Shown in pieces: positions 3,036-18,460 of a stretch of 18,573 bases of DNA. The DNA is from Megamonas hypermegale. GTDB lineage: Bacteria; Bacillota; Negativicutes; Selenomonadales; Selenomonadaceae. Within the stretch, counting starts at the first letter, position 1, and each line of letters opens with the position of its first letter. The notes under the pieces are model-generated. The model was not told the DNA's origin, searched no databases, and saw only the letters and a list, made by a program, of their open reading frames with translations. The stretch is taken from positions 1-18,573 of the forward strand of contig DCFC01000036.1 in NCBI GenBank assembly GCA_002314325.1, given 5' to 3'. The position numbers and the translations under genes were made by a program.

Positions 3036-5450
3036 ATGTCCAGATACAGAGTGTATCAATTAGCAAAGGAATTCGGCCTGGATACAAAACAGGTCATTGA
3101 TATATTGAATAAGAATAAATTCAAAATAACCAACAACTTTAATCTTGTTGGAGAGAAAGAACGTGAGGTTATAGCTACTATCGTGAATAATAAAGAACAT
3201 AATAACAATAAAAATACCGCTAAGAAAAACAATCAGCCGAACAATCAAAATGCCAATCAGAATAAAAACAGCGGTGCTGTGAATAACAACAGACATAAAA
3301 ATAATAATGGCAATGGCGGCAATAATCAGGGAAGCAGCCGCAATAATAATCACAATAGCGGTCATAATAAATCCGGCAATAACAATGCGGAACACAGACA
3401 GAGAAATAATAAAAATGCCGCAATGAATAATAATAACGCCAAAACAGGTGAAAAGAACGAACGCAACGACCGCATGGAACGCGGCGAACGCGCAGAACGC
3501 ACGGAACGTAATAAAAACCGCAACAACAAGAACAGCCGCAATCAAAATCAAAACAACGGCCGCAATAATAACCGCCCGAACAATAATAAAAACAACGGCA
3601 AGAACAATGCTACTGCCAATAATAAATTCGGCGGCAATAAAAAGAACAAAGGCAAAAACGCTAAACAAGCGCCTGTAGAAGTTAAGCATCAAGAAATCAT
3701 TCGCCCGAAACACATCAAAGTAGGGGAAACGATTACTGTAAAAGAACTGGCCAGCAAGATGACGTATCCGGTAACGGATGTCATTAAAAAATTAATGCTG
3801 CTGGGCACAATGGCGACAATCAATCAGGAACTCGATTTTGAAACGGCTTCGCTTATCGCGGAAGAATTCGGCATTGCCGTGGAAGAACTGCCGCCGGAAG
3901 TCGACCTTACGGAAATTCCGGAAGTGGAAGATGCGCCGGAAAAACTGCAGCTCCGTCCGCCTGTTGTTACAGTAATGGGTCACGTTGACCACGGTAAAAC
4001 ATCACTGCTCGACGCTATCCGCAAAACGTCCGTTACATCGAGCGAAGCCGGCGGTATCACGCAGCATATCGGTGCTTATCAGGTAATGTGCAACGGTCAG
4101 AAAATTGTATTTCTGGATACGCCGGGCCATGAAGCATTTACGGCTATGCGTGCGCGCGGTGCACAGGTTACGGATATTGCCGTGCTCGTAGTTGCAGCCG
4201 ACGACGGTGTTATGCCGCAGACGCTCGAAGCAATCAACCATGCCAAAGCGGCAAAAGTGCCGATTGTAGTGGCTATCAATAAAATCGACAAACCGGGGGC
4301 AAATCCCGACCATGTAAAACAGCAGCTGGCTGAACATGAACTCATTCCGGAAGAATGGGGCGGCCAGACAATCATGGTGCCTGTTTCTGCGAAAAAGAAA
4401 ACAGGTATCAGTGATTTATTGGAAATGATACTGCTCGTGGCGGAAGTACAGGAATTGAAAGCCAACCCGAACCGCGAAGCGCGCGGCGTAATCATCGAAG
4501 CACGCCTTGATAAAGGTCGCGGCCCTGTAGCGTCCGTACTTGTACAGAACGGTACACTGCGCATTGGTGATTTCATCATCGCCGGAACGGCATGCGGCAA
4601 AGTCCGCGCTATGGTTAACGACCGCGGCGAAAACGTGAAGAAAGCCGGTCCGTCTATGCCGGTCGAAGTGCTCGGTCTGTCCGACGTACCGGAAGCAGGG
4701 GACGAACTTGCTGTACTGGATGAAAAACTGGCTAAAACGATTGCAGAAAAACGTATCGAAAAACAGCGCAACGAACTCATGCGCTCCAAGAAAGTTTCCC
4801 TTGATGACCTGTTCAATCAGATTAATCAGGGCGATATAAAAGAACTGAACCTGCTCGTCAAAGCCGACGTTCAGGGCTCGGTGGAAGCTGTATGCTCCTC
4901 GCTTCTGGCTCTGAACAAAAACGAAAGCGAAGTCCGCGTAAGCATTGTACACTCCGGTGTCGGTGCTGTAACGGAGTCAGACGTAATGCTTGCTTCGGCA
5001 GCCAATGCCTTAATCATCGCTTTCAACGTGCGTCCTGATGCCAATGCGCGCAAACTTGCCGATACGGAAAAAATCGAAATTCATACGTACCGCGTAATTT
5101 ACGAAGCTATCGACGATATCCAGTCGGCTATGAAAGGTATGCTTGCGCCGAAGTACAAAGAAGTAATTCAGGGCAAAGTGGAAATCCGTCAGGTTATGAA
5201 ATTCTCCAAAGCGCTCGTTGCCGGTTCATACGTACTGGAAGGTAAAGTATGCAACAACTCGAAAATCCGCATAATCCGCGACAATATCGTATTGTATGAA
5301 GGTCAGATTGAGTCCTTGCGCCGTTTCAAAGATGATGTGAAGGAAGTAGCGCAGGGTTATGAATGCGGTATCACAATCGACAATTACCGCGATTTCCGCG
5401 AAGGAGATATTCTCGAAGTCTATACTATGGAAGAAATTCCGCAGAAATAA
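3036..5450 (+). CDS. infB: Translation initiation factor IF-2
   Basis: An 804-residue IF-2 GTPase that places initiator fMet-tRNA on the 30S subunit. The order is an IF2_N helix domain (1-52), a long Asn/Lys/Arg-rich low-complexity linker (about 53-210), a second IF2_N module (about 225-283), the G domain with GHVDHGKT (315-322), DTPGHE (361-366), NKID (415-418) and SAK (451-453), then domains II, III and the C-terminal fMet-tRNA-binding domain. The start is ATG 3036, 5 nt after GGGGGTG; a TTG directly before it is ignored. The linker is unusually asparagine-rich. Internal ATGs in the linker could yield short IF-2 isoforms, as known in E. coli, but I see no strong ribosome binding site for one. 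Confidence 0.97.
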
Positions 5451-5460
5451 GGAGGCAGTG

Positions 5461-5820
5461 ATGGGAAGCGTTCGAGTAGAAAAAATACAGGAACTGATAA
5501 AACAGGAAGCTAGTGAAATCATCATGCGCGAACTGAAAGACCCGCGCATCGGTTTTGTTACTGTAACGGAAGTGGATGTTTCCAGCGATTTGCGCAATGC
5601 CAAATTATACGTAAGCATACTCGGTAGCGACAAGCAGATTGAAGACACGTGGAAAGGGCTCAACTCCTCGCTGGGCTTTATCCGCCGCGAACTGGCGCAC
5701 CGCATCCGCCTGAAATTTATTCCGGAAATCAAATTCTTAATGGATACTTCATTGCAGTACAGTGCACACATTCAGGAACTGCTGATTAAAGTGCAGAAAG
5801 ATGAAGAGGATAAAAAATAA
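5461..5820 (+). CDS. rbfA: Ribosome-binding factor RbfA
   Basis: A 119-residue RbfA, a KH-type cold-shock and 16S maturation factor of the 30S subunit. Family sequence: RVEKIQELIKQEASEII, MRELKDPRIGFVTVTEVDVSSD, AKLYVSILG, then LGFIRRELAHRIRLKFIPEIKF. The ATG at 5461 follows GGAGG (5451-5455), which begins directly after the infB stop codon. The same frame is open further upstream inside infB, but no signal supports an earlier start. Its stop overlaps the nrnA start by one base (TAATG). Confidence 0.95.
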   Translation: MGSVRVEKIQELIKQEASEIIMRELKDPRIGFVTVTEVDVSSDLRNAKLYVSILGSDKQIEDTWKGLNSSLGFIRRELAHRIRLKFIPEIKFLMDTSLQYSAHIQELLIKVQKDEEDKK

Positions 5821-6770
5821 TGGAAGTAACACTGAAACAAGCCGGAGAAATAATCTTAAAGGCTCAGAATATAGTGTTGTCCTCCCATGTCAATCCGGAC
5901 GGCGATAATGTCGGTTCTACTTTGGGGCTGTATCATGCCCTGAAGGGAACCGGCAAAAATATCCGGATTTTGCTCGATGATGATTTGCCGGATAATCTGG
6001 GTATGATGGAAGGACTGGAGCTTTATCAAAAACCGGAAAAAGAGCTGGAAAATGTCGATTTGCTCGTTATTTTGGATGTGGATATCGACCGCATCGGCAG
6101 AGTGCGCGACGCTGTAAAAGCACCGGTGCTCAATATCGACCACCATATTTCCAACAGCAAAGTATGCGATTACTGCTATGTAGACGCGAAAGCGGCGGCG
6201 ACGGCGCAGATTGTGTACAGTTTAATCAAAGAAATGAACGTGCCGTTCAACCAGCAGTGCGCTATGTGTCTGTATACGGGAATTGCCTCCGACACGGGAT
6301 TTTTCCGTTACAGCAATACGACACCGTTCACATTGAGAGCGGCGGCCGAACTTCTGGAAGCGGGCGCAAGACCGGATAAAATCTCCGAGATTTTTGACCA
6401 GCGTTCTTTTTCCAGCGTGAAAGCGGCAGGCAGAGCAATCGACACGATTGAACTGCACGAAAACGGCAAAATCGCGCTGATGACGGTGGATAAAGCACTG
6501 AAAGAGTCCGCTGACAATACGGAGGGCTTTGTCAATTTTGCCAGAAATATCCGCGGCACTGATGTTGCCGTTATGATAAAATACGCTGATGAAAACGTTA
6601 CGCGCGTAAGTATGCGCTCTAAAAATACGAACGTCAGCGAAATTGCACAGTCAATCGGCGGCGGCGGCCATATCCGCGCAGCCGGTGCCACCGTCTATAA
6701 AAATCTGGACGAGGCCAAAGAGATTGTGCTCAATGCTATTGTTGAAGGAATGAAGAAACAAAATGCCTAA
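5820..6770 (+). CDS. nrnA: Bifunctional oligoribonuclease/pAp phosphatase, DHH family (NrnA)
   Basis: A 316-residue DHH/DHHA1 phosphoesterase. The metal-site motifs are HVNPDGDNVGS (H23, D27, D29), DVDIDRIGR, DHH (107-109) and the C-terminal DHHA1 signature GGGGHIRAAG starting at G280. NrnA degrades short RNAs and dephosphorylates pAp. It is a usual neighbour of rbfA and truB in Firmicutes. Translation is coupled at both ends: the ATG overlaps the rbfA stop by 1 nt, and the truB start overlaps its last 8 nt. Confidence 0.92.
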   Translation: MEVTLKQAGEIILKAQNIVLSSHVNPDGDNVGSTLGLYHALKGTGKNIRILLDDDLPDNLGMMEGLELYQKPEKELENVDLLVILDVDIDRIGRVRDAVKAPVLNIDHHISNSKVCDYCYVDAKAAATAQIVYSLIKEMNVPFNQQCAMCLYTGIASDTGFFRYSNTTPFTLRAAAELLEAGARPDKISEIFDQRSFSSVKAAGRAIDTIELHENGKIALMTVDKALKESADNTEGFVNFARNIRGTDVAVMIKYADENVTRVSMRSKNTNVSEIAQSIGGGGHIRAAGATVYKNLDEAKEIVLNAIVEGMKKQNA

Positions 6771-7632
6771 CGGTTTTGTAAATGTGCTGAAAGCTCCCGG
6801 CATAACATCGCACGATATAGTCGCACATCTGCGCAAGGTTTACGGCATGAAGAAAATCGGTCATGCCGGAACACTCGACCCGGCGGCGGCAGGTGTCCTG
6901 CCGATTGCACTGGGCAAGGCGACGCGCATGCTGGAATATATGGATAACGCGGATAAATCGTATACAGCGGAAGTTACGTTCGGTTATACGACCGACAGCG
7001 GCGACGATACGGGCAACGTGATAGAAGAAGCGCCGTATCAAATGCCGACGATAGAGGCGATAAAACAGGTGCTGGAAACTTTCCGCGGCGAAATAAAACA
7101 GCGGCCGCCGATGTATTCGGCTGTGCGCATCAACGGGCAGAAGGCGTACAATCTCGCCCGCAAGAATATTGAAGTGGAAATGCCAGAACGAACGGTTGTA
7201 ATTCATGCGATAGATTTTCATGAAATGACGGAAAACGGTTTCGTTTTTTCCGTGAAATGCTCCAAAGGAACGTATATCCGCAGTCTGTGCATGGATATCG
7301 GGAAAAAACTCGGCATACCGGCTGTGATGAGCTTTCTCGTGCGCACGCATGTAGGCGAGTTCAAGCTGGAAAATGCCTGGAGTACGGAGGAAATCGGCAT
7401 GCTGCCGCATAAGGCGCTATGTCCGATGGATTTTCCGATAAAACATCTGCCGGAGTATAAAATCACGGAAGATGAAGCGTTGATGATAAAACAGGGCAAG
7501 AAAATCAATGTAGCTGAAAACGTAGAGTTTGCTGACAAATTTATCCGCCTATATACGGATAAGGAATTTGCCGGTATTGGACGATATGTGTTCAGTGAAC
7601 GAAAAATCGCCCCGCATAAAGTTGTGTTATAA
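6763..7632 (+). CDS. truB: tRNA pseudouridine(55) synthase TruB
   Basis: A 289-residue TruB, which makes pseudouridine-55 in the tRNA T-loop. Signature sequences: GITSHDIVAHLRKVYGMKKIGHAGTLDP with the catalytic D39, GVLPIALGKATRMLEY, the KQRPPMYSAVRINGQKAYNLAR segment, and CSKGTYIRSLCMDIGKKLG. A C-terminal PUA-like region follows (about 225-289). The start lies inside the nrnA 3' end. It is the last gene before a strong terminator. RibF, a frequent next gene in Firmicutes, is absent here, which marks the edge of the accessory block. Confidence 0.96.
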   Translation: MPNGFVNVLKAPGITSHDIVAHLRKVYGMKKIGHAGTLDPAAAGVLPIALGKATRMLEYMDNADKSYTAEVTFGYTTDSGDDTGNVIEEAPYQMPTIEAIKQVLETFRGEIKQRPPMYSAVRINGQKAYNLARKNIEVEMPERTVVIHAIDFHEMTENGFVFSVKCSKGTYIRSLCMDIGKKLGIPAVMSFLVRTHVGEFKLENAWSTEEIGMLPHKALCPMDFPIKHLPEYKITEDEALMIKQGKKINVAENVEFADKFIRLYTDKEFAGIGRYVFSERKIAPHKVVL

Positions 7633-7727: not shown

Positions 7728-8075
7728 GTGTCGAGTATTGATGATATAGAAGAATTTCTGTGCAAAGTAAGAGTTTTGATAGCAAATAATAAATTTCGTT
7801 TTTTAAAGAAGCGCAAGAAGAATATGATAAGTTTAGCTCTGTTAGGTTTAACACCTGAAGATATACCGGAAATTATTGCTGAATTGAGATATGAAAATTA
7901 TTCAAGCGGACCGGAAGACGATAGAGATAGAGAAGATAAAAATTGCATATGGGTTTTTGAATACCAATATGAAGAGTATGAAATTTATATAAAGTTGAAA
8001 ATAACAACAGAAGAATTATTGAATATATCATTTCATATAGCGGAATATCCTATGAAATATCCGCATAAAAATTAG
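7728..8075 (+). CDS. MqsR-family toxin (type II TA, predicted mRNA interferase)
   Basis: A 115-residue protein that I place in the MqsR toxin family. The evidence is the core IWVFEYQYEEYEIYIKLKIT (residues 74-93), matching the VYLKIT strand of MqsR with its Tyr (Y87) and Lys (K89), then LNISFHIAEYPMKYP where MqsR has a LIVSF strand. Its partner directly downstream is MqsA-like. MqsR is a ribosome-independent, mainly GCU-specific RNase; specificity here is unknown. The start is GTG at 7728 with AGGAGG (7715-7720). A basic N-terminal segment (KKRKKN, 27-32) is notable. The gene is AT-rich compared with truB, suggesting acquisition. Confidence 0.75.
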   Translation: MSSIDDIEEFLCKVRVLIANNKFRFLKKRKKNMISLALLGLTPEDIPEIIAELRYENYSSGPEDDRDREDKNCIWVFEYQYEEYEIYIKLKITTEELLNISFHIAEYPMKYPHKN

Positions 8076-8119
8076 GACGAAATAAATGGATAGATAGATT
8101 TTAGAAAGGACGATATTTT

Positions 8120-8824
8120 ATGAGCAAAGAGAGAAAAGATTGTTTACATGAAAGAACAGTAATTATAGAAAAAGAAGAAATTTATAATGTAAAAGGAGAG
8201 GATATTAAAGTTAATGCACATGTAAGAAAATGTCTTGACTGTAATGAAGAAATACTGGATATGGTATTGGATACGGATAATCTCAAACAAGCGTATGACA
8301 TATATAGAAAAAAACATAATATGTTGTCAACAAAAGATATCATCAATTTAAGAAGAAAATATAATTTGAGTCAAAGAACGTTTGCTATACTTATTGGTTG
8401 TACTCAAGCCACTGTGGTTAGATATGAAAAAGGCGCACTGCAAAATTTAACATATGATAATATAATGAAAATGTTGGAAGAACCTGCAAATTTAAAATCG
8501 GCGTTGGAAAAAAATAAAGATAAGCTAGATGCAAAAGAAGTAGAAAAAATAGAAATGACGTTAAACGATTTGCTTAAGGAGGAAAAGTGTATTTCGTCTT
8601 ATGAAAAATTTTTGGCAACGTTGCCATTGAAAGATGATAACTACAGTAATGTTCAATCTGATTTTCTGAATTCATTAAATACATTATTTGAAAAGAACGA
8701 TTTAGAAGAAAATATGCAAATGGTTTTTGTAAATAAAGAAGAAGAGGTATTGTTAAAGAATTTAGAAGAAATTTTTAAGCTGCTGAATGCTATGGGAAAA
8801 ACTTTAAAAATAACATCATTATAA
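8120..8824 (+). CDS. MqsA-like antitoxin, YgiT-type zinc region plus Xre HTH, long C-terminus
   Basis: A 234-residue predicted antitoxin. The N-terminus resembles the YgiT/MqsA zinc domain but has C8-x-H10 in place of the usual first CxxC, with the second pair intact (C38-LD-C41). It is followed by the antitoxin sequence DIINLRRKYNLSQRTFAIL and a helix-turn-helix (about 83-105) ending in ATVVRYEKG. E. coli MqsA is about 130 residues, so roughly 100 C-terminal residues of charged helical sequence are extra. It follows the toxin by 44 nt, the toxin-first order typical of mqsRA. It probably neutralises the toxin and represses the operon. Confidence 0.78.
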   Translation: MSKERKDCLHERTVIIEKEEIYNVKGEDIKVNAHVRKCLDCNEEILDMVLDTDNLKQAYDIYRKKHNMLSTKDIINLRRKYNLSQRTFAILIGCTQATVVRYEKGALQNLTYDNIMKMLEEPANLKSALEKNKDKLDAKEVEKIEMTLNDLLKEEKCISSYEKFLATLPLKDDNYSNVQSDFLNSLNTLFEKNDLEENMQMVFVNKEEEVLLKNLEEIFKLLNAMGKTLKITSL

Positions 8825-8933: not shown

Positions 8934-9806
8934 ATGAAATTTAATAGATTGAATGATTTATATTTTAAACGACTTCTTGGTGATAAGAATAAAAAGAGTC
9001 TAACGCTCAATTTTTTAAATTCAATTTTAGATAGAGATGCCAATAATTACTTTACGGATATTACATTTTTAGATAAAGATAACGAACCGGAAACGATAGA
9101 CGGCAAATTATCCAAGTTGGATATTCGAGCAGATATGAATGACGGTACCCAGATAGAGATTGAAGTACAGGTACTGCCGTTTAAGCTGATGGCGGAACGC
9201 TCTTTGTATTACTGGTCGAAAATGTATGCTGAACAACTGGGAAAAGGTGAACGTTACAAAAAACTGAAAAAGACGATTGCCATAAATCTTTTAAATTTTG
9301 ATTATCTCACTGACGAGAAAGACTGGCACAATATTTATAGGCTCTTAAATGCTAAGTCTTACAGAAAATTAACAGACCATATGGAAATTCACTTTGCGGA
9401 GATACCGAAGTTCAAACTGAAAGATATTAGAAAAATGAGAGCATCCGAAACCTGGATAGCGTATTTTTCCGGTAACTATGATGATAAGGAACTGGAGGAA
9501 TTATCAATGAATAAGCCGATTATGAAAGAAGTAATGGATTTTGAGCGTTCTTTTTTGATGGATAAAATGCAAAGAAGAGAATATGAACAAAGAGAAAAAG
9601 CCCTTAGAGATTATTACTCTTATATGGGAGAAAGTTATGAAGATGGTTATGATAAGGGTTATGATAAGGGTTATGATAAAGGCAAAACAGAAGAAGTAAA
9701 CAAGATTGCTTTAAATCTGTTGGACTTAGGAGCTAATATAGAAATGATAATGAAAGCTACAGGTTTAAGTGAAAACGAAATAAAAAATTTGCAAAAAGAA
9801 AAATGA
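8934..9806 (+). CDS. Rpn-family PD-(D/E)XK nuclease/putative transposase, copy 1
   Basis: A 290-residue protein of the Rpn / PDDEXK_2 family, annotated variously as recombination-promoting nuclease or putative transposase. It has the usual opening LNDLYFKRLLGDK, LTLNFLNSIL, then the nuclease core LSKLDIRAD (D63) and IEIEVQ (E77 and Q79, the family's ExQ variant), RSLYYWSKMYAEQL and the later WIAYFSG. A basic-acidic tail with a DKGY repeat and a terminal helix-turn-helix-like segment (GANIEMIMKATGLSENEI) follows. Characterised relatives cut DNA, promote RecA-independent recombination, and some act in phage defence. It is about 33% identical by eye to the second copy at 15706-16602. AAGGAG precedes the ATG. 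A bidirectional terminator follows. Confidence 0.85.
   Translation: MKFNRLNDLYFKRLLGDKNKKSLTLNFLNSILDRDANNYFTDITFLDKDNEPETIDGKLSKLDIRADMNDGTQIEIEVQVLPFKLMAERSLYYWSKMYAEQLGKGERYKKLKKTIAINLLNFDYLTDEKDWHNIYRLLNAKSYRKLTDHMEIHFAEIPKFKLKDIRKMRASETWIAYFSGNYDDKELEELSMNKPIMKEVMDFERSFLMDKMQRREYEQREKALRDYYSYMGESYEDGYDKGYDKGYDKGKTEEVNKIALNLLDLGANIEMIMKATGLSENEIKNLQKEK
9507..9806 (+). CDS. Candidate intragenic RpnS-like small protein (in-frame within Rpn copy 1)
   Basis: The in-frame ATG for M192 is preceded by GGAGGA (9494-9499) with a 7-nt gap, a better ribosome binding site than many annotated starts here. The product would be 99 residues: the C-terminal part without the nuclease core. In E. coli, Rpn genes encode such small C-terminal proteins (RpnS), which block toxicity of the full-length protein. 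The second Rpn gene has the same arrangement at the same aligned codon. Expression is inferred only, and an internal promoter is not clear. Confidence 0.45.
   Translation: MNKPIMKEVMDFERSFLMDKMQRREYEQREKALRDYYSYMGESYEDGYDKGYDKGYDKGKTEEVNKIALNLLDLGANIEMIMKATGLSENEIKNLQKEK
9645..9680 (+). repeat. Three tandem 12-bp repeats inside Rpn copy 1
   Basis: GGTTATGATAAG is repeated at 9645-9656, 9657-9668 and 9669-9680 (last base A), encoding GYDK three times. Its length is a multiple of three, so slippage would change the length of the linker before the terminal helical segment without a frameshift. Confidence 0.9.
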
Positions 9807-9814
9807 ACGTAAAA

Positions 9815-9865
9815 AAGACTTTTTCAGTTGAATTTTGATTTGGATACTGAAAAAGTCTTTTTTTA
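9815..9865. terminator. Bidirectional terminator between convergent genes
   Basis: A 14-bp perfect stem (9815-9828 with 9846-9859) has a 17-nt loop. T-runs follow on the plus strand (9858-9864), and on the minus strand the A-run at 9811-9816 supplies the T-tract. It serves Rpn copy 1 (plus) and the Xre regulator (minus), which ends at 9863. Confidence 0.85.
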
Positions 9866-10225
9866 ATTCTTTTCTTCCATATTCATTAATAAATTTGCCA
9901 ATAACTTGCGGTTTTCCGTTGACAATTTTAAATATTTTTTGAGAAATTGGATATCAAGCTCGGTTAAGTTCTGCGTTTGGGAGATTTCTTCTATCAGCAT
10001 GTTGCTGTTTTTGTTTTCCATTTCTCCTTCGCCGGTGAGCAACCAATCCTTATTGATATTGTATGTTTTGCACAACATACCAATGTTTCTATCGGTTATA
10101 TTGCGTACACCTGTTTCGTATTGACCTATAATAGCTTGCTTTAATCCTAGTGGTTTGCCGAAATCTGTCTGGTTAAGACCGAGAGATTTGCGAAGCAAAC
10201 GAATTCGTTTACCGATATCAGACAT
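9863..10225 (-). CDS. Xre-family transcriptional repressor
   Basis: A 120-residue protein with a classic Xre/Cro helix-turn-helix at residues 4-62: IGKRIRLLRKSLGLNQTDFG, LGLKQAIIGQYETGVRNITDRN, LCKTYNINKDWLLTGEGEM. The C-terminal half (ELDIQFLKKYLKLSTENRKLLANLLMNM) is a helical tail like that of many phage-type repressors and probably dimerises. No peptidase or metal-binding domain is present. It is divergent from a small ORF at 10395 with back-to-back promoters, so it probably represses both. It is convergent with Rpn copy 1. It may be the relic of a prophage or of an integrative-element switch. Confidence 0.88.
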   Translation of the reverse strand: MSDIGKRIRLLRKSLGLNQTDFGKPLGLKQAIIGQYETGVRNITDRNIGMLCKTYNINKDWLLTGEGEMENKNSNMLIEEISQTQNLTELDIQFLKKYLKLSTENRKLLANLLMNMEEKN

Positions 10226-10565: not shown

Positions 10566-10647
10566 TTCTTTATTTTTAATGGTAATAAAAAATCCTGATG
10601 AAACAGATTAAACATTTTTGGTATTTTATGTTGGCTTGGGAGGATTT

Positions 10648-11457
10648 ATGAAAATTACATATAAGACGGAGATTAAGCCAACAACGGAGCAGGTCAATAA
10701 AATCAAGCAGAATATAGGTACGTGTTGTTGGATTTACAATCAATATGTCAGATTGAATACACAGTTGTATGAGATGCGGCAGCGCGGGCTTTTGGATGAG
10801 AAACAGGCTGATTTTGTCAGCGCCAATGATTTTGCTGAAAGTATACGGCAAAAATTAACGGCAGGGAATGATTTGTTCTGGGTCGGTCAATGCGACAGTT
10901 ATGCCAGAAACATTACGCTGATTAATGCGGAAAAGGCTTTTAAAAGGTTTTTTCAGGGCAGGAGCAATCTGCCGAAGTTGAAGAAGTTCAACGGGCAGGA
11001 CGCTAAACTGCATTTGAAAAGTAAAAAAGATGATGCCTGGATTATTGAAAGGCACAGGGTGAATATCCCGACAATCGGTTTTGTGAAGCTGAAAGAGTTC
11101 GGGTATCTGCCGATAGATGAGGAAGTTCTGTCGGGTACGGTTTCGTGCGAAGCCGGAAGGTATTATGTGGCTGTTACAGTGGAAAAGGACAGGGCGAAAA
11201 TGCCTTCAAGTGATAAAAATACTGTTGGAAGCCAAAGTGATATCAGTAATATTAATGACAGGATTGAGAAAATCGAGAAGAAAATCCGGCGCGAAAAGCG
11301 CAGTCTGGATAGGAAATATGCCAGCCGAAACGGTTCGGGCTGTTTCGCCAATATTGAGAAACAGCGGGAAAAGATAGATAAGCTGGAGCAAAGGCTGCGG
11401 TTTATGCAACAGGACTGTTGGCATAAGGCTGTTAAGTTTGATAGAAAAGATGTCTAA
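10648..11457 (+). pseudogene. tnpB: IS200/IS605 TnpB remnant lacking the RuvC catalytic core
   Basis: A 269-residue open frame, against roughly 370-420 for intact TnpB. The N-terminal region is typical: KITYKTEIKPTTEQVNKIKQ, CCWIYNQYVRLN, ITLINAEKAFKRFFQGRSNLPKLKK, then VNIPTIGFVKLKEFGYLP and the beta-strand GRYYVAVTVEK. Where RuvC-I (GIDLG) should follow, VG is joined directly to SQSDISNINDRIEKIEKKIRREKRSLDRK, so the first catalytic Asp is gone. After the helical segment QQDCWHKA the frame ends, without RuvC-II, zinc ribbon or RuvC-III. The start is ATG 10648 with GGGAGGA. No tnpA is visible. It is most simply a decayed insertion sequence, but the frame is intact, and a DNA-binding, nuclease-dead role cannot be excluded. 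Confidence 0.8.
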
Positions 11458-11725: not shown

Positions 11726-14296
11726 ATGGCAAAAAATAAAAAAGCTCAAATTTTAGCCGCTGTAATGTGTGCTGCAACAGTTGCAGGTGTATCTCCAGCA
11801 ATATCTTCAGCAAATGGTATTTATGATAATGGAGAGCCATTAGAGTCTGCATCTACTTATGTTGTAGCTGAAGGTGGAGAAATTCGTGGACAAGCTGACA
11901 AAAATTTAGTTTTTAGTATTGGTGAGAATGCACTCAATATGAATGAATCTCTTACAACTTTGACAGGAGATTTAAGTGTTGCAGGTTATATAAACGCTAA
12001 TACAATTAGTGCTGGTGTAGTTACAGGAGAAGCTTTACAAAATGCAAATGGAAGCTTTGTAGCAGATGCTAACGGCAATGTTACAGCAACAACAGTAAGC
12101 ACAACGGGATTATCTGTATCAAATGAAAACGGAACAAATTTCCAGGTATTATCTGATGGTACTGTAAATGCGACCAATATAAATGCTGGAGTGATTACAG
12201 GTGAAACACTTCAGAATGTAAATGGAACTTTTGTAGCAGATGCTAACGGCAATGTTACAGCAACAACAGTAAGTACAACGGGATTATCTGTGTCAAATGA
12301 AAATGGAACAAATTTCCAGGTACGTTCTAATGGTGATGTAACAGCTAATGATTTGACAGTTAATAATGTAAATGCCGGTGTAGTTACAGGAGAAGCTTTC
12401 CAAAATGCAGATGGAAGTTTTGCAGCAGATGCTAACGGTAATGTTACAGCAACGACAGTAAACGCAACAGGATTATCTGTAGTAGATGATGAAGGAAATA
12501 CAAATTTCCAGGTATTATCTGATGGTACTGTAAATGCGACCAATATAAATGCTGGAGTGATTACAGGTGAAACACTTCAGAATGTAAATGGAACTTTTGT
12601 AGCAGATGCTAACGGTAATATCACAGCAACTACGGTAAGTACAACAGGATTATCTGTAGTAGATGATGAAGGAAATACAAATTTCCAGGTATTGTCTGAT
12701 GGTACTGTAATTGCTGATAAGGTAGATATTGGTATAGTTTCTGGTGAAACTATTCAAAATGCAGATGGAAGTTTTGTAGCAGATGCTAACGGTAATGTTA
12801 CAGCAACAACAGTAAGTACAACAGGATTATCTGTAAAAGATGATGAAGGAAATACAAATTTCCAGGTATTATCTGATGGTACTGTAAATGCAACTAATGT
12901 AAATGCTGGCACAGTTACTGGAGAAATTCTCCAAAATGCAGATGGAAGTTTTGTAGCAGATGCTAACGGTAATGTTACAGCAACAACAGTAAGCACAACG
13001 GGATTATCTGTAAAAGACGATGAAGGAAATACAAACTTCCAGGTATTGTCTGATGGTACTGTAAATGCAACTAATGTAAATGCTGGTATAGTTACTGGAG
13101 AAATTCTTCAGAATGCAGATGGAAGTTTTGTAGTAGATGCTAATGGTAATGTAGATGCAACAACAGTAAGAACAACAGGATTATCTGTAGTAGATGATGA
13201 AGGAAATACAAACTTCCAGGTATTATCTGATGGTACTGTAACTGCAGATGATTTTGTAGCTAATGGTATCTCTTTAGGTGGCTTAGCCGATACCATTAAT
13301 AATATTTCTCCAGAGGGAGGTCTTTCTAACCTCGGTGGTATTAGACGTGATGATACGAATTTTGTTGATCCAGGTAAGTCTTTTACTCATATTGAACAGA
13401 GCACAACTATCAGCAAAGATGGCGTAAATGTAAAAGTAGAAAATACACTGACTACTATTGATGAAGCTGGTGTAACTACTGATGGAGCATTGAAATCTGA
13501 TAACGAAAAAGGTTCGTCTACAATTGATGGCGGTACTGTAGAAGTTACTGGCGGTACTAATGGCGGTACTACAACTATCGATGGCGGTAGCATTGTTACT
13601 GATAGCATTACTGCAGGTCAGATTAATGGTGTTGGCATTGGCAAAGATGAAAATGGTAACACTATTATTAATGGCACAAATTTAGGTGAACTGGCTACAG
13701 ATACAACTGTTACTGAAAAAGTAAATGCTGCAGTTGGCGATACTACTAAACTTAATGACGATATTAAAGATGCTAAAGAATATCAAGACAATCAGTCTTT
13801 AGTTGGTGCTATCAATGCTGAATCTGCTATGCGCCAGCAGTTAGGTAAAGATGTTAAGGCTTTAGATGGTCGTGTAAGCAACTTGGAAGATCGTATGGGC
13901 GATGTTGAAGACCGTATTGATAAAGTTGGTGCTATGGCTGCTGCTATTGCTAACTTACGTACAATGGGTTATGATCCGGAAGCTCCGACTGAAATCGCTG
14001 TTGGCGTTGGTCAGTATGAAAGCGAAACTGGTCTGGCTCTTGGTGTATTCCATTATCCAAATGAAGATTTCATGCTCAGCGCAAGCATTTCCACTTCTGG
14101 CGATGAAGTAATGGGCGGTATCGGTGCTACTTGGAAAATCGGCCGCAAATCTGCAGCTGAAAAAGAACGCACTGTAGAAGAAAAACGTGTGGAAAAAGCT
14201 GAAGAAATGCAGGAAATGGCAAAAGCTGAAAAAGTAAAAGCGCAAAGAGAAAGACATGCAAAAATGCTGGCAGAAAGACAGCAGCAGGAAGCTTAA
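11726..14296 (+). CDS. Trimeric autotransporter adhesin (YadA-type anchor)
   Basis: An 856-residue type Vc secretion protein. A Sec signal peptide comes first (KNKK, hydrophobic stretch, likely cleavage SSA-N at 29/30). A short head follows (30-90), then seven 58-66 residue repeats (91-506) containing FVADANGNVTATTVSTTGLSV and NFQVLSDGTV. A Gly/Thr-rich stalk (about 507-680) leads to a coiled coil with RVSNLEDRMGDVEDRIDKVG and the YadA-like four-strand anchor (about 755-806) ending GGIGATWKIG. About 50 highly charged residues (807-856, Lys/Glu/Arg/Gln-rich) extend beyond the anchor, where YadA proteins normally stop. Trimers would display the passenger on the cell surface and may bind host or bacterial partners. 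The start at 11726 has a weak AGGGG site. The promoter is unclear. Confidence 0.92.
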   Translation: MAKNKKAQILAAVMCAATVAGVSPAISSANGIYDNGEPLESASTYVVAEGGEIRGQADKNLVFSIGENALNMNESLTTLTGDLSVAGYINANTISAGVVTGEALQNANGSFVADANGNVTATTVSTTGLSVSNENGTNFQVLSDGTVNATNINAGVITGETLQNVNGTFVADANGNVTATTVSTTGLSVSNENGTNFQVRSNGDVTANDLTVNNVNAGVVTGEAFQNADGSFAADANGNVTATTVNATGLSVVDDEGNTNFQVLSDGTVNATNINAGVITGETLQNVNGTFVADANGNITATTVSTTGLSVVDDEGNTNFQVLSDGTVIADKVDIGIVSGETIQNADGSFVADANGNVTATTVSTTGLSVKDDEGNTNFQVLSDGTVNATNVNAGTVTGEILQNADGSFVADANGNVTATTVSTTGLSVKDDEGNTNFQVLSDGTVNATNVNAGIVTGEILQNADGSFVVDANGNVDATTVRTTGLSVVDDEGNTNFQVLSDGTVTADDFVANGISLGGLADTINNISPEGGLSNLGGIRRDDTNFVDPGKSFTHIEQSTTISKDGVNVKVENTLTTIDEAGVTTDGALKSDNEKGSSTIDGGTVEVTGGTNGGTTTIDGGSIVTDSITAGQINGVGIGKDENGNTIINGTNLGELATDTTVTEKVNAAVGDTTKLNDDIKDAKEYQDNQSLVGAINAESAMRQQLGKDVKALDGRVSNLEDRMGDVEDRIDKVGAMAAAIANLRTMGYDPEAPTEIAVGVGQYESETGLALGVFHYPNEDFMLSASISTSGDEVMGGIGATWKIGRKSAAEKERTVEEKRVEKAEEMQEMAKAEKVKAQRERHAKMLAERQQQEA
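11996..13243 (+). repeat. Seven tandem ~174-177 bp coding repeats in the adhesin
   Basis: Repeats begin at 11996, 12170, about 12368, 12536, 12713, 12890 and 13067. Most units are 58 or 59 codons; the second is longer because of an inserted TANDLTVNN stretch. Units 4 to 7 are nearly identical at the DNA level over the DANGN and NFQVLSDG segments, pointing to recent duplication or gene conversion and likely copy-number variation. This is a protein-coding repeat, not a CRISPR array. Confidence 0.92.
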
Positions 14297-15705: not shown

Positions 15706-16014
15706 TTATGCTTTGCTTAATTTTATTATTTCTTCTAAAGGTAATTCTGTATATTTAGCAATTATTTTTAAATCCACATTATCGGCCAACATTTTTCTTG
15801 CCATAGTTTCAGCTTTCTCTTTTTCTCCTTGTTTTTTGCCTATAGTAATACCTTCTTTTCTACCAATAATAATACCGCGTTTTTCACCTAAACGTATTTT
15901 GGTAGTTTCCTCACGGATGGCATCTTCACGTTGCTGATATTTTCTGTACATTTCATCGTTATTGGTAAAAGCCTGTTCATAAGATATAGCTTCTTTTAAT
16001 AAAGGTTCATTCAT
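15706..16014 (-). CDS. Candidate intragenic RpnS-like small protein (in-frame within Rpn copy 2)
   Basis: The internal in-frame ATG for M197 (complement of 16012-16014) follows GGAGG (16027-16023) with an 8-nt gap. The 102-residue product would start MNEP, matching MNKP in Rpn copy 1 at the aligned codon. Both internal starts lie after the YDEKELE / YDDKELE motif. The site probably reflects codons for Leu-Glu in part, but both genes use GGAGG-forming codons here. Confidence 0.45.
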   Translation of the reverse strand: MNEPLLKEAISYEQAFTNNDEMYRKYQQREDAIREETTKIRLGEKRGIIIGRKEGITIGKKQGEKEKAETMARKMLADNVDLKIIAKYTELPLEEIIKLSKA

Positions 16015-16602
16015 ACATAAAACCTCCAATTCTTTTTCATCGTATACACCCGAAAAATATGCGCCCCATGCTTCCAGCCGTTTGGCTTTTTTCACGTCGC
16101 TGAATTTGAGCTTCGGCAGTTCCAGAAAGTGCATTGTAATACAGTCAGTTATAGGCTTTTCTATCCCTTTTACAGTAAAGTTTGCTGTATTATGCCAGTT
16201 CGGTAGTTCTTCAAATAGTTTAAAATCCAGCAGATTTATACCGATTATCGGTTTAAGTTCATCATAATCTTGACCTACAACAGCTTGTTCAGAAAATATG
16301 CGGGATAGATAAAACATGGAACGTTTAATTATATAATTCTGCCGCGATACCTGCAGTTCTATATTGACGAATGTTTTATCATCAACACTTGCTTTCACAT
16401 CGAGAATGGACAATTTGCCGTCTTTCGTCAGCGGGTCCTGTTCTGTTTTGAGAAACTGTATGCTTTTAAAAGCATTTTCTTCTGTTCTATTTAAGATAAG
16501 ATTTAAAAATCTAAGAGTCAGATTGCTTCTTTTTTCGTCGCCCATAAGATTTTTAAAGAAAAAATCATTCAGCCGATATACCTTGCGCTTTGATTTTGTC
16601 AT
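15706..16602 (-). CDS. Rpn-family PD-(D/E)XK nuclease/putative transposase, copy 2
   Basis: 298 residues, same family as the gene at 8934-9806. The opening is YRLNDFFFKNLMGDEKRSNLTLRFLNLIL, the nuclease core is LSILDVKAS (D68) with IELQ (E82 and Q84), then RSMFYLSRIFSEQ and AWGAYFSGVYDEKELE. The C-terminus has GRKEG/GKKQG repeats, then a helical segment (NVDLKIIAKYTELPLEEII). The start is ATG 16602 with GAGGTG 6 nt before; the frame is open further upstream, but that region is the duplicated zinc-gene copy read in antisense. The gene stands alone between two direct repeats and points against its neighbours, as expected of an insertion. Confidence 0.85.
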   Translation of the reverse strand: MTKSKRKVYRLNDFFFKNLMGDEKRSNLTLRFLNLILNRTEENAFKSIQFLKTEQDPLTKDGKLSILDVKASVDDKTFVNIELQVSRQNYIIKRSMFYLSRIFSEQAVVGQDYDELKPIIGINLLDFKLFEELPNWHNTANFTVKGIEKPITDCITMHFLELPKLKFSDVKKAKRLEAWGAYFSGVYDEKELEVLCMNEPLLKEAISYEQAFTNNDEMYRKYQQREDAIREETTKIRLGEKRGIIIGRKEGITIGKKQGEKEKAETMARKMLADNVDLKIIAKYTELPLEEIIKLSKA

Positions 16603-16985: not shown

Positions 16986-17918
16986 TTGGATTATATTGAA
17001 GATGTTTTAAAAGTAGCGGTTTCTTGTCAGTCATGGAAATATAAAAATAAGTTACCGTTATTTATGATTGATAAATATGATATTAAGAAAGTTAAGATAG
17101 GAAATATTGATACTATATTTTTATTTGTAAAATCCAGTTTAGATTCTATACCTGTCTTAAAGAAACACATATCTAAAATTCAAAAATTAGAGTGCTTGCC
17201 GGTTGTTTTCGTTTTGAAGTCGAATATTAGAACTTTTATAGAATATTTAATTCAGGAAGGTATTTCGTTTATAGTTCCATATAAACAAATTTATCTTCCT
17301 TTTATGGGAATGATGTTAAAAGATAATTATAATTTTACTGATAATGATAAATTTTTGCCGTCAACACAAGTTGTATTGTTTTATTATTTTTATAAGCAGG
17401 AAAAAAAACTTTATATAAAAGAAATTATAAAATATACGGGTTTTTCCGGAATGACTATTACTCGAGCTATAAGGCAATTAGAACAAACAGGATATTTTTT
17501 TTTAGAAAAAGCTAGTACGCAAAAAATTTTGTGTAGCAAATACTCACCGAAAGAACTATATGAACAGCTTTCATCATATTTAATTTCTCCAGTGCGAAAG
17601 ATAAAATATGTTTCATCTATTGAGATTGATAAAAAAAGTTTATGTTTATCGGGTTTATCGGCTCTTTCCAGTATGACTATGATAAATCCGGATTTGGTAG
17701 AGTGTTTTGCTGTTAAAGATAATTTATCAAAATGGAAAGGTTCAGATATATTACTAAATCCATTAAATCAGGTAAAAATAGAAATATGGAAATATAGTCC
17801 ATTTATATTGGCTAAAGATAATATAGTTGATCCTTTATCATTAATAATGACTTTGAAAAATGAAAATGATGAACGTATACAGGAAGCTGTTGAAAGTTTA
17901 TTAAAGAAAGTGTGGTAA
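16986..17918 (+). CDS. AbiEi-like antitoxin with winged-helix domain (type IV TA)
   Basis: 310 residues. A winged helix is visible at about 126-180 (STQVVLFYYFYKQ, LYIKEIIKYTGFSGMTITRAIRQLEQTGYFFLEKA). The N-terminal 120 residues resemble a Rossmann-like or AbiEi-type cap without motifs I can name. The C-terminal part (SSIEIDKKSLCLSGLSALSSMTMINPDLVECFAVKD, then EIWKYSPFIL, VDPLSLIMTL) matches the pattern of antitoxins encoded before AbiEii nucleotidyltransferases. The start is TTG 16986 after GTGGTGAG. The antitoxin-first order and the 5-nt gap to the toxin fit type IV systems. It is very AT-rich, suggesting acquisition. It is the likely binder of the repeats at 16907-16969. Confidence 0.72.
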   Translation: MDYIEDVLKVAVSCQSWKYKNKLPLFMIDKYDIKKVKIGNIDTIFLFVKSSLDSIPVLKKHISKIQKLECLPVVFVLKSNIRTFIEYLIQEGISFIVPYKQIYLPFMGMMLKDNYNFTDNDKFLPSTQVVLFYYFYKQEKKLYIKEIIKYTGFSGMTITRAIRQLEQTGYFFLEKASTQKILCSKYSPKELYEQLSSYLISPVRKIKYVSSIEIDKKSLCLSGLSALSSMTMINPDLVECFAVKDNLSKWKGSDILLNPLNQVKIEIWKYSPFILAKDNIVDPLSLIMTLKNENDERIQEAVESLLKKVW

Positions 17919-17923
17919 AATAA

Positions 17924-18460
17924 ATGGTTGTAGGATTAGAAAGTTTTAAAAAATGGTTTAAAGATTATGAAGAGCAGTATGTGATTATTGGTGGTACAGC
18001 ATGTTCATTATTGATGATGGATGAAGGGCTGGACTTTAGGGCAACAAAAGATCTGGATATGGTATTGATAATAGAAGCAATTACACCAGAATTTGGTAAA
18101 TGTTTTTGGGAATATATTTTAAATACTGAATATGAACACAAAAATAAAAGTACAGGGTTACCGCAGTTTTACAGATTTAGTCATCCAAGAAGTAGGGAAT
18201 ATCCTTTTATGATTGAATTATTTACTAAACATGTAAAAGGAATATATTTGCCAGATGATGCAATTTTGACGCCGTTACTGATGGATGAAGATATTTCAAG
18301 CCTGTCTGCAATTTTATTAGATGAAGATTATTATCATTTATTATCTGATGGAAAAATTAAAATCGATGATATTAGCATATTAGAGGCAAAATATTTAATT
18401 CTTTTTAAAGCAAAAGCGTGGTTGGATTATTGCTCAAGAAGATATTTTGAAACTTCTTAG
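17924..18460 (+). pseudogene. AbiEii-like nucleotidyltransferase toxin, C-terminally truncated
   Basis: 178 residues, against about 240 for close family members as I recall them. The nucleotidyltransferase core is clear: IIGGTACSLLM (GG at 23-24), then FRATKDLDMVL with the DxD pair D43 and D45, PFMIELF, and SLSAILLDEDYY, ILFKAKAWLD near 156-167. After AWLD the frame reads YCSRRYFETS and stops. The expected DVxRLxxLL-type helix instead appears in the next frame as QEDILKLLSKIYIEE (18435-18482), so roughly 20 codons plus a frame were lost. Family toxins transfer nucleotides (for example to tRNA) and cause growth arrest or phage abortive infection. This one may be inactive or attenuated. Confidence 0.72.

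Follow-up and report, generated by a model that had tools for sequence, protein, structure and literature searches.

A conserved internal start in a PF12784-type rpn gene of Megamonas hypermegale probably encodes a long RpnS

Introduction

Does a single rpn gene of Megamonas hypermegale encode both a nuclease and a small protein that restrains it? The gene in question, rpn copy 1, lies on an 18,573-nucleotide stretch (contig DCFC01000036.1 of assembly GCA_002314325.1), here called the window, which also carries a second rpn copy. The original prediction, made from the letters of the window, placed a strong ribosome-binding site and an in-frame ATG inside copy 1 and proposed the two-proteins-one-gene design of Escherichia coli.

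In Zhong et al. (2023; PMC10327210), the E. coli rpn genes (RpnA-E and RpnP2) are described as RpnL/RpnS intragenic toxin-antitoxin systems. RpnS binds to RpnL; it prevents growth inhibition, induction of the SOS response, and cleavage of DNA. It dimerises through the repeat helix, RpnA-L and RpnA-S assemble into a 2:2 complex, and the number of repeats sets the specificity of RpnS for RpnL. The same text proposes that the design is broadly conserved. The active site of RpnA is D63/E82/Q84, according to a separate report (PMC5350276).

Results

The two rpn genes of the window

Copy 1 (8934..9806, forward strand) encodes a 290-residue protein of the PD-(D/E)XK nuclease family, the candidate full-length RpnL. 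In profile searches it matches PF12784 (E 4.1e-54, 184 bits, curated cut-off 27.4) and TIGR01784 (E 1.1e-53, 183 bits, curated cut-off 52.1). Residues D63, E77, and Q79, which are assumed without an alignment to be equivalent to D63/E82/Q84 of RpnA, are invariant in 55 of 55 aligned sequences, both window copies included, and the PD-(D/E)XK core is intact. All three lie outside the 99-residue C-terminal part of the protein. That part includes four-residue repeats encoded by 12-bp tandem repeats (3.8 copies, 9634..9679, forward strand). Repeat number varies between proteins that are 98-99% identical (P0001, P0002, and P0004), and these three have fewer four-residue repeats than copy 1. Directly 5' of the gene is an MqsR-like toxin/MqsA-like antitoxin pair (7728-8824; Pfam E 1.4e-7 and 7.2e-8). 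On its 3' side, a long A/T-rich inverted repeat with a T run behind it (9810-9868) looks terminator-like by eye and is absent from the output of the sigma-70 scan.

Copy 2 (15706..16602, reverse strand; PF12784 E 4.9e-44) would encode a full-length RpnL of 298 residues if it starts at ATG 16602, which has GAGGT ahead of it. This start is inferred, having been picked from a duplex scan, and the listed open reading frame (ORF) runs from 16827. An internal Shine-Dalgarno GGAGG (16023..16027, reverse strand; duplex energy -10.0) stands 8 bases before an internal ATG at 16014, from which a 102-residue RpnS is proposed (15706..16014, reverse strand). GGAGG-N8-ATG is found at the equivalent place in both rpn copies. 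Beside copy 2, the stretch 16986-18460 encodes a winged-helix-like protein and then one whose AbiEii match is very weak (E 0.061), a pair that is perhaps AbiE-like.

Position and strength of the internal start

The predicted geometry of copy 1 is borne out by its sequence. GGAGGA (9494..9499, forward strand) is followed by a 7-base gap (9500-9506) and by ATG 9507-9509, which is in frame, (9507-8934)/3 being 191, and thus codon 192. Starting here leaves 99 of the 290 codons, omits the D63/E77/Q79 core, and keeps the repeats and the terminal helices. The resulting product (9507..9806, forward strand; 99 residues, about 12 kDa) is the proposed RpnS of copy 1, a proposal that draws on the frame, the ribosome site, stand-alone relatives, and a model match to 7TH0. 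Among the in-frame starts scanned in copy 1, M192 has the best anti-Shine-Dalgarno pairing (-9.3 kcal/mol), and the runner-up is codon 271 at -6.5 kcal/mol.

The window has six distinct places with GGAGG-N4-12-ATG (eight overlapping matches; shuffled sequences have a mean of 2.54 and a largest value of 8). Judged against the ORF list, three are probable true gene starts, namely ATG 2443, ATG 5461 (inside ORF 5359-5820), and ATG 10648 (inside ORF 10618-11457). Another two are the sites within the rpn copies, and the last, GGAGG-N8-ATG at 7386-7401 with ATG 7399, is an in-frame internal site of ORF 6763-7632. Given these six places, the internal ATG 7399 among them, the motif alone is not proof of a start. 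Counting against the internal start, the ribosome site of copy 1 can pair in a predicted hairpin (9460-9505) with a UUUUUCC stretch that lies upstream, a prediction that is not significant (z -1.27). A sigma-70 scan returned nine promoter-like sites, compared with 4.7 in shuffled sequences, and no site among the nine was clearly internal to the M192 start. The infB-region DNA is 80-83% identical to two genomes, one of which includes the Megamonas funiformis JCM 14723 plasmid NZ_CP048628. Among the other window genes, 10648-11457 probably encodes a truncated IS605-type OrfB/TnpB with the N-terminal HTH_OrfB_IS605 domain only, and 11726-14296 encodes a repeat-rich protein with a YadA-like membrane anchor.

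Conservation of the ribosome site in relatives

The site was compared in 207 loci plus the window, drawn from among the matches listed. Merging identical sites gave 202, of which 179 had the nuclease part aligned and were kept; the other 23 were dropped for having fewer than 120 columns aligned ahead of residue 192. M192 is nearly invariant as a residue in the 55 aligned sequences, so the methionine by itself says little. GGAGG 4-12 bases ahead of the M192 equivalent is present in 116 of the 135 relatives with Met and in 3 of the 44 without it, and the gap between it and the start measures 8 bases at 116 of the 119 sites and 9 bases at the other three. Synonymous resampling with each gene's own codon usage yields only 29.8 of 135. 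The excess persists when one gene per cluster is counted, both at 70% identity (41/49 observed, 10.3 expected) and at 55% (21/24 observed, 4.8 expected). The original prediction had named random synonymous codons at this site in homologs as the result that would speak against it; the codons are far from random.

The constraint is specific to this position. Among 64 representatives, the residue triplets found at the M192 site are encoded with GGAGG in 40 of 42 cases there, compared with 43 of 540 at other places in these genes. Of the other in-frame ATGs beyond codon 30, 7 of 576 are preceded by GGAGG. A scan for synonymous constraint over 283 columns, with 60 Met-bearing genes less than 75% identical, ranks the two Shine-Dalgarno codons highest, residue 188 first (52/60 codons end in G, 22.4 expected) and residue 187 second (53/60 codons, 32.7 expected), with residue 186 third. 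The residue ahead of GAG is variable (K, M, L, W, R, T, or V), yet its codon ends in G. With a slightly wider set of ribosome-site words, 50 of 60 starts at the M192 column have a site, compared with 28 of 1218 at all other columns (75 representatives). At the level of sequence comparison, the M192 ribosome site is shown to be under selection and not a product of chance.

Shifted starts and lineages without the signal

Among representatives lacking Met, 9 of 16 have another in-frame ATG, GTG, or TTG with a strong site between -15 and +20 codons, where resampling expects 2.6; four control windows gave 0, 1, 0, and 0. In one Selenomonadales clade without Met at 192, GGAGG-N8-GTG/ATG sits 14 codons downstream (L064, L086, L152, L172, L176, L179, L185, L191, L193, and L203). 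At this place, GAG followed by a start codon is found in 23 of 23 non-Met rows with MEV, which are close relatives, compared with GAG in 4 of 12 Met rows with ME there. GAG makes up 300 of 750 Glu codons in the A/Q-type genes of the clade. The internal start of this clade may have moved.

The signal is absent from most Clostridium-type relatives. Of the representatives with Met and no strong site, none of 10 has another strong site nearby, and seven of the 10 come from Clostridium and its relatives. In a Clostridia-centred set of 25 representatives, 14 have a start codon at 192, none of the 14 with a strong site; the set has no synonymous-constraint peak at the junction, and no alternative internal start stood out in it. 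The claim of a conserved start accordingly applies to part of the family, namely Negativicutes, Paenibacillus, Brevibacillus, and some others. In a tree of 106 rows, 13 rows keep Met without GGAGG, and Met and GGAGG each need at least nine changes. Across independent pairs on this tree the two change together in the expected direction, which is not significant (median p 0.125).

A viral-listed contig (IMGVR_UViG_2639762957_000001; locus L081, 1501-2406) carries an rpn gene in which GGAGG precedes the M192 equivalent by 9 bases. One relative was found on viral contigs, P0127 as query returned two weak ones, and the 99-residue protein had no match in the 'phages' collection.

Stand-alone copies of the tail

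Tail sequences also occur as separate ORFs. Non-edge ORFs with the tail and fewer than 40 core positions were counted in 276 loci plus the window, from among the matches listed, giving 43 distinct tail ORFs without the nuclease core. The M192 equivalent (profile position 195) is reached by 26 of them, and all 26 have Met there; GGAGG is kept in 18 of the 26. The other 17 fall short of it: eight begin 1-19 positions later (model positions 2-20), with Met at the extrapolated place in none of the eight, and nine begin later still. Homology in the 26 starts at most 6 positions from the Met in 10, at profile positions 181-188 in eight, and further upstream in eight. Because of this last group, about a third of the 26 may be eroded relics.

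Eight of the 26 follow, at a distance of 17-186 bp, a complete rpn gene that has a tail of its own (M. funiformis, Paenibacillus turicensis, P. selenitireducens, Intestinibacter bartlettii, and four Selenomonadales loci). On the M. funiformis JCM 14723 plasmid NZ_CP048628, for example, a 99-codon ORF lies 24 bp beyond a complete rpn gene, begins at the M192 equivalent, and keeps GAGGAAATAGCA-ATG. In this region (L128, 1811-2416, reverse strand), the first 140 bases of the stand-alone rpnS equal the upstream gene, and the repeats and tail differ, with 16 of the last 36 residues alike.

A length-limited protein search found 35 short relatives, whose starts are gene-caller predictions. Three begin exactly as proposed (P0124, P0125, and P0131), at least 12 start from the following Met (197), eight carry an unrelated leading stretch, and five include part of the nuclease domain. 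Two tail types occur on one N-terminal part among them. Judging from these sequences, the tails of the short proteins and of the M. funiformis copy look as if they had been exchanged.

Structure of the predicted product

An AlphaFold2 model of full-length copy 1 (pLDDT 84.4) has C-terminal helices at 184-193, 195-209, 211-264 (the repeats), 269-276, and 280-289, which puts the M192 start at a helix end. Modelled alone, the 99-residue product is predicted with moderate confidence (pLDDT 75.5, pTM 0.39). Foldseek against the PDB ranks 7TH0, E. coli RpnA-S, first for this model (rmsd 1.1 over 41 columns, TM 0.79 by target length, probability 0.99, and E 0.26, the chain being short). The full-length model had no PDB match at E <= 0.001. 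The sequence profile matches 7TH0 at positions 249-288 (E 0.0069), which means that RpnA-S begins nearly 50 residues after the M192 start. The tail of copy 1 thus appears, from model and profile, to resemble RpnA-S.

Discussion

The conservation of the site, the stand-alone ORFs, and the 7TH0 match make it very likely that ATG 9507 is used as a start. The likeliest reading of the locus is that one gene encodes an RpnL nuclease and, from ATG 9507, a longer RpnS that restrains it. The idea of two proteins from one gene holds up with regard to the internal start. Identity with the E. coli design does not, because the proposed RpnS of copy 1 is about twice as long and starts much further ahead of the repeats.

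The E. coli genes of Zhong et al. (2023) and copy 1 have in common a ribosome site and a start inside a nuclease gene, close to its 3' end, variable four-residue repeats, and a C-terminal helical bundle in the tail. They differ in family (PF04754 for RpnA, PF12784 for copy 1), in RpnS length (49 residues for RpnA-S, 99 for copy 1), and in the distance from start to repeats (8-20 residues in E. coli, 42 in copy 1, from 9507 to 9634). Relative to RpnA-S, the product of copy 1 would be longer by one helix and by half of the long helix, namely its first half. A C. difficile rpn gene provides a Gram-positive precedent: the same paper reports its RpnS, shown in E. coli, to be gone when the ribosome site and start are mutated. 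In contrast, the Clostridia genes compared here have no strong site at M192. The RpnL/RpnS kind is already known; what is new is a predicted RpnS of about twice the length that starts 42 residues before the repeats. No report of a long RpnS in PF12784 genes was found in a literature search that covered mostly papers available without subscription.

By analogy with E. coli, ribosomes would bind GGAGGA 9494-9499 within the message for the 290-residue PD-(D/E)XK nuclease and translate the 99-residue RpnS of about 12 kDa from ATG 9507. This protein would consist of the C-terminal helices, including the repeat helix, through which, being shared, it could bind RpnL and hold the nuclease inactive. 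RpnL would remain inactive until release, for example during phage infection. Inhibition and a role of the copy 1 pair in phage defence are thus assigned by homology, and the product from ATG 9507 is probably an inhibitor of RpnL.

The main rival accepts the internal start and makes the small protein a structural subunit that RpnL needs for assembly or activity. The 2:2 complex of RpnA-L and RpnA-S could be read in this way, and a precedent cited in PMC10327210 is Cas11d, which is made from an internal start of cas10d. Like the proposed RpnS, Cas11d is a small C-terminal protein; unlike an antitoxin, it is a needed partner and not an inhibitor, and its family is unrelated to Rpn. The sequence evidence fits a subunit and an antitoxin alike. 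However, the small proteins of E. coli prevent growth inhibition, SOS induction, and cleavage of DNA (PMC10327210), and the tail of copy 1 resembles RpnA-S, which makes the subunit an unlikely alternative.

It is very improbable that the conserved GGAGG merely slows elongating ribosomes between nuclease and tail and so aids folding without initiation. The site does lie at a helix boundary in the AlphaFold2 model. A pause, however, needs no ATG 8 bases on, and GGAGG follows the presence of Met closely; new pairs of start and site appear where Met is lost, and stand-alone ORFs begin at the M192 equivalent. On the Met-GGAGG association and the shifted starts, a pause without initiation is rejected. 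Least credible of all is a by-product of a conserved protein motif and codon bias. In its favour, Met is nearly invariant, codon use alone would give GGAGG in about 30 of 135 genes, and ATG 7399 illustrates that such a site can arise inside another window gene. A chance ribosome site and a pure protein-motif or codon effect are nevertheless rejected on the G-ending codon ahead of GAG despite a varying residue, the excess at 55% clustering and over the same triplets in the same genes, the synonymous nulls, and the 283-column scan.

An RpnS that restrains RpnL from within the same gene remains the preferred reading, and it can be extended tentatively. PF12784-type Rpn proteins of Negativicutes and some Bacilli may form a 'long RpnS' class, in which the antitoxin of about 85-130 residues has an added helix and half of the long helix. 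The internal start would have been kept while moving, as in the Selenomonadales clade with the start 14 codons downstream. Starting near its ribosome site, the unit would repeatedly have been copied out to form a stand-alone gene, and some of the copies, as on the M. funiformis plasmid, have a different tail. If so, these different-tail copies would be immunity genes against other Rpn variants.

The comparison supports selection on an internally started RpnS well beyond E. coli and C. difficile, and it suggests that the antitoxin boundary is not fixed. GGAGG-N8-ATG in two genes of one window, together with natural stand-alone copies, provides precise sites for testing the mechanism. Stand-alone copies 3' of some rpn genes are a further feature shared with E. 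coli, where ypaA, a DUF4351 stand-alone rpnS, is likewise a tail-only gene behind a complete rpn (PMC10327210). The copies described here differ from ypaA in starting at the M192 equivalent. The M. funiformis plasmid copy carries the annotation nuclease/transposase (Rpn nuclease), and its annotated start lies a little further upstream; proteins of this kind may therefore be mislabelled.
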